From: a virus
Length of the DNA stretch: 64,000 bases
Direction: 5' to 3' (one strand)
Virus record (IMG/VR): IMGVR_UViG_3300027852_000033
Coordinates: 1-64,000 of that record
The notes under the pieces were generated by a model. That model saw only the letters and a list, made by a program, of their open reading frames with translations, was not told the DNA's origin and made no database searches. The position numbers and the translations under genes are program-made. Shown piece by piece: positions 12,135 to 15,627 of this stretch; positions within the stretch are counted from its first letter, which is position 1, and every line of letters starts with the position of its first letter.

Positions 12135-12178
12135 TCGGGGCGGAAGGACTCGAACCTTCCAGAATACCATAACCCCAA
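12135..12178 (-). ncRNA. tRNA-like element 1 (acceptor + D-loop + T arm, no anticodon arm)
   Basis: Minus strand: TTGGGGTT, ATGGTATTCT, then a T arm GGAAGG-TTCGAGT-CCTTCC, then GCCCCGA. The acceptor strands pair over about 7 positions, including two G-U pairs. The T loop is canonical and the GG in ATGGTA matches the D-loop guanines. It starts 8 nt after the polymerase stop codon. Total 44 nt, so the anticodon and variable regions are absent. Stem bases differ from elements 3 and 4 while pairing is preserved. Confidence 0.75.
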
Positions 12179-12186
12179 CCCAGATA

Positions 12187-14745
12187 TTATATAACTCTCA
12201 TACCTGGTTCCCTGACATAACCGATATAATCGACCATGTCTTTCAAGTTGTAGTCTCCTACAACTACTGGGAGTGAAGCCAGTATTGCTACTGATTTCGT
12301 TGTAATGGGTTTTTCATGCACTTTCGTTGCAAGTTTATCGAGGAATGCTTTTCCTCTTGTACTATTCACCATTACTAAAGCATAGAACAGTACTCGCATT
12401 GCATCAGATACCATAGCTGTGTCAGCCTTTAGTATCCTTTCCCTGATATCTGCAAGATGCTGATATGCATTATCAGTACCGTTCCGGAGAGCAGTGATGT
12501 GAGCCAGATACAGAGTATGTATCTGATGTGCAACTTTAACCGCCATTGGAGACCGATTAATAATTGCATTTATCTCACGAGCACACATTGGCCCTTTCTC
12601 CACTGATAGTTTCTCAGGGAAGGAACGGATTTCGTAGAATGATTGTCTGGTACCATATGACCATACCAGATCATTCTGCCCCATATACCTTAGGAAGGTT
12701 TCGTACTCCTCTATAATGCCATCTAAGTATTTCTTCCTTTTGGTATTTTTCTCTGACTTTGCATTCCATTTCAAAGTGGAATAGGCAGAGTTCTGTTCAC
12801 ACAAAACCATTGGTAAAGCATCCATAGCTTCTGCGAACAAAGGAGACATTGGGGTCATCTCCTTTCGGGCATCGTCCAATCTGTTCGGATAAATAACCGG
12901 CATGGTATCGGTCTTGGACAGTGCTCCAATTTCTTTACCTACATTCCCTTTAGCTACCATAAGGGTAGGGATATACTTAAGAATCCCATTCATGGTAACT
13001 ATATCCATAGGAAGGTCAAACGGCGGGATCACTTTCTTTGCCATATCAACCATGCCCTGGAGGGCAATTTCTATAGACGGGAGCAGATCAGAGCGATCCG
13101 CTGAAATTACAGTATCAGCGCAGTAATTTCCCATACCCACTGATAGTTTCCCAAAGGAACTGGCAGCGAATATATACACCAAGTTCGGTAATGCAGACGT
13201 TGCATCTGCATTCTTAGGAACATTACTTCCCAACCGGCTATTATCAAATATAGAATAGCCAACCATGGAGATTAAATCTCCATCAAAATCTCCACCAAAT
13301 CTATCAGCGAAGACATTTGGATCTACCGCTATTGCATCTAAACAGTGGGTTCTTGTAACTTTTGCCTCTCCCCAACCATTTGGATGTCTAGCTATCGATA
13401 CCAAATCTTTTGTAGATAAACCTAATCTACGTCTGTCAGAACCGCTTAATGCGATTCCATATTTACCTACCAAATTCGAAGGCATTGCAAATTTAGTAGA
13501 TCCAGGAACCCTTATCCTTAAGACAGAATTACGAATAAGCGGCCTGATCAATTCAAGTACCTTACTTGGGGGGCAAGGTAATCCACATACTAACATAGTA
13601 TTTACGGACTTTATTGAATTGAACAGTATATCCCGGTCTTCAATCTCTTCATCAGTTAGAATAAGAGCATCTTCTTCACTGATGTTCGCCATTTCGTTTA
13701 TGACCTTGGAAGTCATATTGATTAGCGGTTGTGCATTTCCATCAGCATATGAGGAATATGCATGGTGGATTTGTTCTGCGGCTTCTTTACGAGTTTGAGA
13801 CAATACCTTCATTGCCTCTGGCCGTACTGAATCGAGTTGCCGCCATTCTCGAGTTACAGTTGCCTTTTTGCCATTGACAGTGTTTAATACTTTCCACACA
13901 TCAAGACAATGGATGACATTGCGGCCATCCGTAAACTTAATATCCTTCTTGTTGCAGCATATAATATCACTATCAACAGAGAAAGATACCCCAGCAAAGT
14001 ACTGGACATCATACCAGTACTCATCCGGGATTACTAATCCAACTACCTTACCAACTGGAGTAGGGGATCCTTCTCCCATCTTCCTAGCTAGTTTGGTAAT
14101 ATCCTCATTGAAATAAAGCTTGACGATATTACTATCAAGTTTTACGTCAAGGGAACTCTTCTTAATAAAACAGAAAGAGTCCCAGTCCCTATAATAATTA
14201 TGCGGAGAATCTGGTGCCAGTTGGACTGTAGCCCCTGACATAACCAACTTGGATGTACCAAGCTGAAGATGCTGGGATAACGGCCCATACCGTCCACATT
14301 GAGGGTCTGGCTTGATAGGATCAAATATCCCATCATTAGCGAAAACCATAAATAGCCTGGCTTTCATCTCGCCATTTCTCTTGACCAATGAGTGTCGACC
14401 TGGATTACATGGTCCAAGTCTGTATTCAGCCGGCATCCATTTCCTAATCTTGACAGCGGCCTTGTTAATCTCCATCTTCCATGCAGAGAGAGTAGACTGT
14501 TGATCTATCTCTACTTCTACACACTTAAGATGGGAAGCGATGAAAGCCATTGCACCACACATGACTTCCGTTCTTATTACCTTACCTTTAATGTCATATA
14601 CTGAAATGACTGAAGATGGGCAATCTCGAGCTGCCTCAAGCTCGGTAATACCAATTTCACGTTCTTCCTTGGAGAACGCAAAATCTTCCCTACACCCTGG
14701 TTTGAGCCAAGGCTCGGGAAATACAGATTGTTCGTAGGTTTCCAT
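12187..14745 (-). CDS. YonO-like single-chain DNA-dependent RNA polymerase (putative)
   Basis: An 852-aa protein. The diagnostic site is GGDFDGD at residues 484-490 (D486, D488, D490), the magnesium-binding motif of double-psi beta-barrel RNA polymerases (NADFDGD in bacterial beta'). It is preceded by RHPNGWGEAKVTRTHCLD, as in beta' where R-P..H precedes the site. A second barrel-like region, with IRVPGSTKFAMPSNLVGKYG near 427-446, fits the conserved lysine barrel. Length and single-subunit form match phage SPbeta YonO (about 840 aa) and the eukaryotic QDE-1 group, and no other RNAP subunit lies in the window. Probable role: transcription of a subset of phage genes. AGGAGGATTCCAAT precedes the start, and tRNA-like elements flank the gene on both sides. 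Confidence 0.75.
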   Translation of the reverse strand: METYEQSVFPEPWLKPGCREDFAFSKEEREIGITELEAARDCPSSVISVYDIKGKVIRTEVMCGAMAFIASHLKCVEVEIDQQSTLSAWKMEINKAAVKIRKWMPAEYRLGPCNPGRHSLVKRNGEMKARLFMVFANDGIFDPIKPDPQCGRYGPLSQHLQLGTSKLVMSGATVQLAPDSPHNYYRDWDSFCFIKKSSLDVKLDSNIVKLYFNEDITKLARKMGEGSPTPVGKVVGLVIPDEYWYDVQYFAGVSFSVDSDIICCNKKDIKFTDGRNVIHCLDVWKVLNTVNGKKATVTREWRQLDSVRPEAMKVLSQTRKEAAEQIHHAYSSYADGNAQPLINMTSKVINEMANISEEDALILTDEEIEDRDILFNSIKSVNTMLVCGLPCPPSKVLELIRPLIRNSVLRIRVPGSTKFAMPSNLVGKYGIALSGSDRRRLGLSTKDLVSIARHPNGWGEAKVTRTHCLDAIAVDPNVFADRFGGDFDGDLISMVGYSIFDNSRLGSNVPKNADATSALPNLVYIFAASSFGKLSVGMGNYCADTVISADRSDLLPSIEIALQGMVDMAKKVIPPFDLPMDIVTMNGILKYIPTLMVAKGNVGKEIGALSKTDTMPVIYPNRLDDARKEMTPMSPLFAEAMDALPMVLCEQNSAYSTLKWNAKSEKNTKRKKYLDGIIEEYETFLRYMGQNDLVWSYGTRQSFYEIRSFPEKLSVEKGPMCAREINAIINRSPMAVKVAHQIHTLYLAHITALRNGTDNAYQHLADIRERILKADTAMVSDAMRVLFYALVMVNSTRGKAFLDKLATKVHEKPITTKSVAILASLPVVVGDYNLKDMVDYIGYVREPGMRVI

Positions 14746-14814
14746 ATTGGAATCCTCCTAAATGAAATTTGCAATCCATAATAAATTACAGATTGCGACT
14801 ATATACATAGCCAT

Positions 14815-14859
14815 TTGGGGCAGAAGGAATCGAACCTTCCAGAATACCATATACCCCAA
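14815..14859 (-). ncRNA. tRNA-like element 2
   Basis: Minus strand: TTGGGGTA, TATGGTATTCT, T arm GGAAGG-TTCGATT-CCTTCT, then GCCCCAA. The 8-bp outer helix is complete (one G-U). It begins a few bases after the stop of 14865-15167. It is followed, before the polymerase ribosome site, by a GCAATC/GATTGC hairpin. Compared with element 4 the third outer pair is G-C instead of A-U, a compensatory change. Confidence 0.75.
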
Positions 14860-14864
14860 CCTTA

Positions 14865-15167
14865 CTATGACCAGAAAATCACTTTCCCGCCCATATCTTT
14901 TAGAATGATGTGAACTTTCACATCATTTAACTCCCCAGAGTAATAATTCTGGGAAGCATGCTTCTCTATTATATATCTACCTGCTTTTGTTATTACTGCG
15001 ACACCATCTGGAATACCCCCCAATGCCGCGACTTTTATTTTTGGAACATCACTAATCCAAAAATACTGCTCCCCCTTCTGGTTGCAGTTTTGAGGAGTAA
15101 CTTTTACTTTCCCTCCTGGAGTTACTCTGACCTTAACTAAACTTATTTCATGTTGTTTCTTACTCAT
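14865..15167 (-). CDS. Small beta-rich hypothetical protein (100 aa)
   Basis: MSKKQHEISLVKVRVTPGGK, with repeated beta strands (KVKVT, KIKVAALGG, GVAVITKAGRYII, VKVHIILKD). AGGGGGCTTT precedes ATG 15167; the frame is open further upstream but without a site. Located between tRNA-like elements 2 and 3 and next to the polymerase gene, so a transcription-related partner is conceivable but unproven. It may be a small beta barrel. Confidence 0.6.
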   Translation of the reverse strand: MSKKQHEISLVKVRVTPGGKVKVTPQNCNQKGEQYFWISDVPKIKVAALGGIPDGVAVITKAGRYIIEKHASQNYYSGELNDVKVHIILKDMGGKVIFWS

Positions 15168-15242
15168 AAAGCCCCCTATACGGTTAAGGTTCGCCAACCA
15201 TTATTGATCTGTTTTACAGACCGCGGCCACATATGTAGCCAT

Positions 15243-15288
15243 TCGGAGCATGGGGAATCGAACCCCATAACTTCTACCATAACCCCAA
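15243..15288 (-). ncRNA. tRNA-like element 3
   Basis: Minus strand: TTGGGGTT, ATGGTAGAAGTT, T arm ATGGGG-TTCGATT-CCCCAT, then GCTCCGA. The T stem is a perfect 6 bp with a sequence quite unlike elements 1 and 2, yet the loop is the same. It is followed by GGCTACATATGTGGCC, itself a hairpin, and by a GATCTGT/ACAGACC hairpin before the next ribosome site. Confidence 0.75.
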
Positions 15289-15300
15289 CAATATGTGGAT

Positions 15301-15513
15301 CTAGTTACTTAAAGACTGAGTATAGATGTAATCCCAATCAAGATCCGGGTGTTCCTTCTCAAGCTTCTTAAGCTTAAGAAGTGTTGCCCCACTCTCCTTC
15401 CATGCTGCAAGAGTAGTCTTGAATTTTGAAGATCTCTTAGTCATCGAATCAATTTGATCATGATTCAATTCCTTTAAGAGCTTGCTAAATGCGTTAAATG
15501 TGTTTCGATCCAT
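15301..15513 (-). CDS. Small helical protein, twin copy 2 (70 aa)
   Basis: Starts MDRNTFNAFSKLLKELNHDQ and ends DYIYTQSLSN, about 80 percent identical to the 15640-15852 protein. AGGAGGTCCGTA precedes ATG 15513. Charged and helical with a central K-rich segment (TLLKLKKLEKEHP). Gene, ribosome site and upstream RNA hairpins were duplicated together. Function unknown. Confidence 0.65.
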   Translation of the reverse strand: MDRNTFNAFSKLLKELNHDQIDSMTKRSSKFKTTLAAWKESGATLLKLKKLEKEHPDLDWDYIYTQSLSN

Positions 15514-15580
15514 TACGGACCTCCTGAAATAAAATAGTAATCTGTAATACAATACAGATTGCGGCCACATATATGACCAT

Positions 15581-15627
15581 TTGGAGTAGAGGGAATCGAA
15601 CCCTACAGTATCTACCATATACTCCAA
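15581..15627 (-). ncRNA. tRNA-like element 4
   Basis: Minus strand: TTGGAGTA, TATGGTAGATACTG, T arm AGGG-TTCGATT-CCCT, then CTACTCCAA. The outer helix TTGGAGTA/TACTCCAA is a perfect 8 bp, and TAT...ATA around the GG could form a short D stem. It is followed by GGTCA-N6-TGGCC and AATCTGTA-N6-TACAGATT hairpins. It lies between the twin 70-aa genes. Confidence 0.8.

Follow-up and report, generated by a model that had tools for sequence, protein, structure and literature searches.

The t-elements are tRNA-like folds in transcripts of plant mitochondria and of Haloferax, where cleavage by RNase P and/or tRNase Z is described as setting the ends of rRNA or mRNA (PMC11658184, PMC4326828). Reduced tRNA mimics are also found in mascRNA and menRNA of the eukaryotic long non-coding RNAs MALAT1 and MEN-beta, in which two guanines of the D loop dock the T loop; RNase P and RNase Z process them (PMC11693755). 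The elbow is the point from which both enzymes measure, and its mimicry is held to bring the two of them to mascRNA (PMC11693755). Bacterial RNase P cleaves model substrates composed of acceptor stem, T stem and T loop (AT1 and pMini, artificial designs cleaved in vitro) as well as a phage message, the T4 gene 32 mRNA, the site of which is not presented in that work as a member of a repeated family (PMC11143913). The marks used in organelle tRNA punctuation are functional tRNAs. In this study, tRNA-like intergenic elements were analysed in a stretch of 64,000 nucleotides of viral DNA (termed the window; positions 1 to 64,000 of the IMG/VR record IMGVR_UViG_3300027852_000033) and in other phages. 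Like t-elements, they are tRNA-like folds in transcripts, located at gene boundaries on the sense strand, but they are 45-nt, anticodon-less structures at serial gene junctions. With organelle punctuation they share the location on one strand between genes and a proposed cutting by RNase P and RNase Z, whereas, lacking an anticodon arm, they are unable to decode. The D stem-loop and the anticodon-equivalent arm kept in mascRNA and menRNA are absent as well. The minimal domain is the same as in AT1 and pMini, and T4 gene 32 resembles the present proposal in being a phage mRNA with RNase P as the cutting enzyme. No description of such elements was found in the open-access literature.

These intergenic elements constitute a new family of short structured RNAs. 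Of a tRNA they correspond to the acceptor-T-arm half alone, stacked over approximately 12 bp, and a GG-containing linker replaces the D loop. The consensus element of about 45 nt comprises an acceptor stem of 6 to 7 bp, a T stem of 5 to 6 bp with a seven-nucleotide TTCRANT loop and a short linker of the ATGGTA type. Across phages, the stems are wholly different in sequence yet paired, while the GG is invariant. Candidates were collected by a pattern scan of IMG/VR and a pairing scanner, and 38 curated elements from other phages, none of them from the window, were aligned (A1) and converted into a covariance model (R1). The window has four copies, all on its minus strand and each at one of four consecutive junctions between open reading frames (ORFs) of the same direction, in line with the preliminary description (scores according to R1):

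15581..15627, minus strand: tRNA-like element 1, outer helix TTGGAGTA..TACTCCAA, T loop TTCGATT (28.2 bits, E 2.2e-5)
15243..15288, minus strand: tRNA-like element 2, outer helix TTGGGGT..GCTCCGA, T stem ATGGGG/CCCCAT (32.8 bits, E 1e-6)
14815..14859, minus strand: tRNA-like element 3, outer helix TTGGGGTA..TGCCCCAA, T stem GGAAGG/CCTTCT (36.4 bits, E 8.5e-8)
12134..12178, minus strand: tRNA-like element 4, outer helix TTGGGGT..GCCCCGA, T stem GGAAGG/CCTTCC (42.7 bits, E 1.2e-9)

In these copies, an outer helix of 7 bp is stacked on a T stem of 5 to 6 bp closed by a seven-base loop (TTCGATT or TTCGAGT), and the linker consists of TATGGTA and a few further bases. RNAfold reproduced the drawn fold in three of the four. 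The divergent T stems reported earlier are indeed still paired (GGAAGG/CCTTCC twice, once with a G-U pair, ATGGGG/CCCCAT and AGGG/CCCT), and the change of an outer-helix pair from G-C to A-U (TTGGGG/TTGGAG) was also seen. Besides the anticodon arm, the absence of which had been recognised, the D stem is missing. The block previously likened to a D loop thus retains the invariant GG, but it has no stem of its own and is merely a linker.

Applied to the window, the window-free model R1 recovered exactly the four described elements as significant (next best match E 0.22), and nothing significant was added over the whole record of 101,904 bases. No tRNA and no Rfam family was identified at the elements in this record with ARAGORN and Rfam, and the tRNA family RF00005 gave no match in it. 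The best cross-match of R1 to a true tRNA, among bacterial tRNA loci, reached about 28 bits. Context and the absence of any tRNA at the site secure the window element with the lowest score (28.2 bits). None of the elements matched an Rfam family above the gathering score, apart from two copies in L101/G005, the only ones in 30 other records that reached the RF00005 cut-off. L151, L117, L104, L114, L192, L075, L019 and L068 were left out of R1 as likely parts of tRNAs, chance matches or unclear cases; one copy of L026, later judged to be probably part of a tRNA-like match, is included. A scan of a genome collection with the DNA pattern mainly picked up genuine tRNA genes (tRNA-Val, -Ser and -Gln). 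In eight named phages reached via neighbouring genes, no convincing element was found (best E 0.005).

The four window copies are related to each other (64–86% identity, partly via tandem duplication of a gene for a 70-aa protein together with its element), and the covariation among them alone, on which the preliminary description had based its claim of a selected RNA structure, is thin for this reason. Selection is upheld well outside the window by R1, by pairing tests, by covariation, by orthologous loci and by a control with an altered pattern. The pairing scanner gave 111 matches, a total including some genuine tRNA genes, compared to 0.5 in dinucleotide shuffles. Among 83 non-tRNA pattern matches taken without any pairing filter, 23 had a perfect acceptor of 6 bp (0.5 with permuted flanks). 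With CC in place of GG in the pattern searched for, pairing of both acceptor and T stem was found in 0 of 42 matches, in contrast to 29 of 83 with the real pattern; the GG is therefore tied to the fold, as in the elbow formed by D loop and T loop of tRNAs. The covariation score of A1 (0.86, compared to 0.20 in shuffled and at most 0.24 in slid alignments) is partly circular, since rows were picked in part for pairing. Free of this circularity are the unfiltered acceptor pairing, the GG-to-CC control and the orthologous loci. In L030/L027, with approximately 96% identical flanks, two double compensatory changes were found in the T stem, and one compensatory change each in L017/L073, L383/L388 and L048/L083 (pairs spanning 80–96% identity). 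Stems in homologous phages, which the preliminary description had considered might drift without compensation, are thus kept paired at these loci.

The 3' side of the elements follows the spacing of tRNAs. C was present at position 74 (tRNA numbering) in 64 of 72 non-window elements, C75 in none of them, and position 76 was A in 52. A count at fixed distance, made independently of the model, gave C74 in 36 and C75 in 2 of 51. In phage tRNA genes of the same loci, C74 was found in 675 and C75 in 365 of 760. Trailers starting with CC or CCA severely inhibit bacterial RNase Z (PMC7479834), and with C75 in 0 of 72 elements no trailer starts with CC. Retention of C74 and avoidance of C75 indicate that the base read by RNase P is kept while the base blocking RNase Z is shunned. 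In sum, the elements have the T arm with its TTCRANT loop, the elbow bases, the acceptor length (12-bp stack of acceptor and T stem) and, outside the window, C74 in common with phage tRNA genes; they differ in lacking D stem and anticodon arm, with a linker of approximately 8 to 16 nt joining acceptor and T stem, and in never having CC after the discriminator. Phage tRNAs without an encoded CCA keep C74 and often end in CNA (CAA in 111, CTA in 30 and CGA in 23 of the 760).

The placement relative to genes is far from random. A stop codon at the 5' end of the element (-9 to +30 nt, ORFs of at least 50 codons) was found in 27 of 46 elements compared to 8% of random sites on the same strand, and a stop plus a following start in 20 of 46 (3.8% of random sites). 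In a larger set, 54 of 76 elements had a stop at -8 to +22 nt (ORFs of at least 40 codons), and in 19 of these 54 it overlaps the 5' strand of the acceptor. The neighbouring genes are co-directional, with the next start usually about 20 to 70 nt after the element, and in one part of L377 almost every gene ends in an element. A hairpin at or just after the tail was present in 27 of 76 cases, compared to 4.8 in shuffled sequences and 8.7 at random positions.

The element is present in dozens of IMG/VR contigs with up to seven copies per genome. Counting the window, the curated set has 45 loci, which form at least 11 groups without a shared protein at E 1e-5, or 26 groups when two shared ORFs are required. 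Copies are clustered on one strand, with seven within 3.2 kb in G031 (83 kb), five in L384 and four each in L154 and L169. The copies within L384, L377 and L154 have only the T loop and the GG in common, while both stems differ. In two phages, L154 (10620–11609) and L166 (1719–2723), related proteins resembling ArdC-like antirestriction proteins are each followed by an element, the stems of which are different. In the genus Paenibacillus, the element occurs sporadically (4 of 76 genomes), in regions with phage-type genes as judged by eye, and is probably a prophage feature there. A conserved mini element (TATGGCCTTCATGGTA..) was found in such prophage-like regions of named, cultured hosts at L224:4137-4184, L275:4106-4153 and L318:449-496; L224 and L275 represent prophages of Paenibacillus gallinarum and P. 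pini. Some elements, in L007, L017/L073 and L167/L183/L188, are longer and have an additional small hairpin or part of a D stem, e.g. AGCAGTA TAGTCTAATGGTAAAC GTAGG. These still lack an anticodon arm and may be transitional forms between a tRNA and the mini element.

From these features we infer that the elements are probably signals for cutting of transcripts by host tRNA-processing enzymes, a tRNA punctuation with a minimal, anticodon-less mimic as already suggested in the preliminary description. The polycistronic phage RNA would fold into the mimic, of which the elbow and the acceptor helix would be recognised by the host enzymes. RNase Z would cut behind the discriminator base (position 73), and a 5' cut by RNase P might be added wherever the stop codon allows it. 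The upstream message would retain its stop codon and end in a tRNA-like cap, while the downstream message would start a few nucleotides ahead of a hairpin shielding its new 5' end. Such cutting would be consistent with the position of the stop codons, the tRNA spacing including C74, the avoidance of C75 and the hairpins. With the stop codon within or beside the acceptor stem, gating by the terminating ribosome is conceivable. The full picture would be a widespread phage system, previously undescribed, in which host RNase Z/RNase P act on minimal mimics between genes and so divide polycistronic transcripts into individual messages whose 5' ends are protected by hairpins, perhaps under such ribosome gating; we regard its chances as even.

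Several observations weigh against this proposal or qualify the structural evidence. Many copies have no downstream hairpin, and about 30% have no clear stop codon nearby. The window elements themselves lack C74 (tail AATG or AATA), element 15581–15627 prefers an alternative fold within the same outer helix according to RNAfold, and the weakest window element is at the edge by score when compared to the cross-match of R1 with true tRNAs. The free-energy z-scores of the window elements are weak (-1.0 to -1.35) and uninformative alone; given also the relatedness of the copies, the window alone is no proof of selection. The pair L387/L381 has an uncompensated change. With respect to the enzymes, a cut by RNase P would destroy the upstream stop in the 19 of 54 elements where it overlaps the acceptor, which makes RNase P a weaker candidate than RNase Z and the 3' cut the better supported of the two. 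Two archaeal RNase Zs, however, require a mature 5' end (PMC7479834), which would make a route via RNase Z only harder if the bacterial enzymes are alike, and processing of substrates without an anticodon arm is shown for archaeal RNase Zs only (PMC7479834).

The location right behind stop codons and the strong, GC-rich helices would also suit stability elements that are never cut, the fold and the hairpin remaining in the message and blocking 3'-to-5' decay or separating translation units. This is unlikely, as a plain hairpin would be sufficient for it and the invariant GG, the TTCRANT loop, C74 at tRNA distance and the exclusion of C75 would be unneeded. A small stable RNA as the actual product, acting as a decoy for host proteins that handle or cut tRNAs or as a competitor for RNase P, RNase Z or the CCA enzyme, seems more doubtful still. 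The elbow and T loop bound by such proteins are retained and processing would free an RNA of 43 to 45 nt, but the regular sense-strand placement at junctions, nearly every one in part of L377, would be unnecessary, and nucleases targeting the anticodon could not see an element without one. Mimicry for aminoacylation was rejected, since acceptor sequences differ even within one genome.

The same stop codons, within -8 to +22 nt in 54 of 76 elements and overlapping the stem in 19, might point to a cis-regulatory sensor of translation, in which the terminating ribosome melts the fold so that folding, and with it cutting or another effect, takes place only on ribosome-free message. These distances are explicable by the close packing of genes in phages; we consider such a sensor very unlikely, and it would be compatible with transcript cutting rather than opposed to it. 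An origin of the elements in tRNA genes that decayed or were truncated, or in attachment sites derived from tRNAs, with loss of the anticodon arm, is highly improbable. Parts of the elements are clearly similar to tRNA and longer tRNA-like variants exist in some phages (L007, L167), but stems changed in a compensatory manner in orthologues, and copies with different stems are repeated at successive junctions. Furthermore, 19 of the 30 element-bearing records were free of tRNA matches at E 0.001, and just 9 had one above the family cut-off. The poorest prospects are assigned to dispersed DNA repeats or mobile elements of the REP/MITE type between genes. Several copies per genome, their inverted-repeat symmetry and the origin of window copies 1 and 2 through gene duplication would agree with this, whereas the copies in L384, L377 and L154 share nothing except T loop and GG and are all located on the coding strand. 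If transcripts are cut as we propose, this would be tRNA punctuation in bacterial viruses, carried out by a tRNA mimic that is among the smallest in nature, recurs at successive genes and was invented in, or spread over, many phage lineages. Phages would thus tailor long transcripts with host tRNA enzymes, and the elements would be natural minimal substrates of RNase P and RNase Z and compact processing tags. Even uncut, they represent a structured RNA family absent from Rfam.

The ORFs flanking the window elements encode, in order, proteins of 70, 70, 100, 852 and 104 aa. The TAG of the first (15640–15852) is located about 13 to 14 nt upstream of element 1. A hairpin directly follows the element in all four cases, as had been described. 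The features surrounding the elements are:

15562..15579, minus strand: hairpin directly 3' of element 1, TGGTCAT ATAT GTGGCCG
15539..15560, minus strand: second hairpin downstream of element 1, ahead of the ribosome site, fold AATCTGTA..TACAGATT
15301..15513, minus strand: 70-aa ORF, tandem duplicate of ORF 15640–15852 (244-nt direct repeat, 78%)
15224..15241, minus strand: hairpin directly 3' of element 2, TGGCTAC ATAT GTGGCCG
15206..15222, minus strand: second hairpin downstream of element 2, fold GGTCTGT..ACAGATC
14796..14813, minus strand: hairpin directly 3' of element 3, TGGCTAT GTAT ATAGTCG
14771..14796, minus strand: second hairpin downstream of element 3, fold GCAATCTGTAA..TTATGGATTGC
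12187..14745, minus strand: 852-aa ORF with GGDFDGD motif, possible RNA polymerase as judged from the motif only
12112..12133, minus strand: hairpin directly 3' of element 4, TAACGAC..GTCGTTA

The designation as a polymerase operon is not established, its sole basis being the GGDFDGD motif in the 852-aa protein, which is without database matches: no relatives were found in IMG/VR, INPHARED, Pfam, PHROGs or PDB except for a near-identical fragment, and structure prediction yielded no usable fold (pLDDT 31). Judged by this motif, the protein could be a highly divergent RNA polymerase of the two-barrel type. Searches with the 852-aa protein and the terminase likewise revealed no relatives of the window phage other than the near-identical fragment. 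The gene of the 70-aa protein (15301–15513 and 15640–15852, minus strand), to which no function was assigned, is duplicated along with its downstream element. An RNase H gene, the own junction of which has no element, is located shortly downstream of the element-bearing genes (11206–11598, minus strand).

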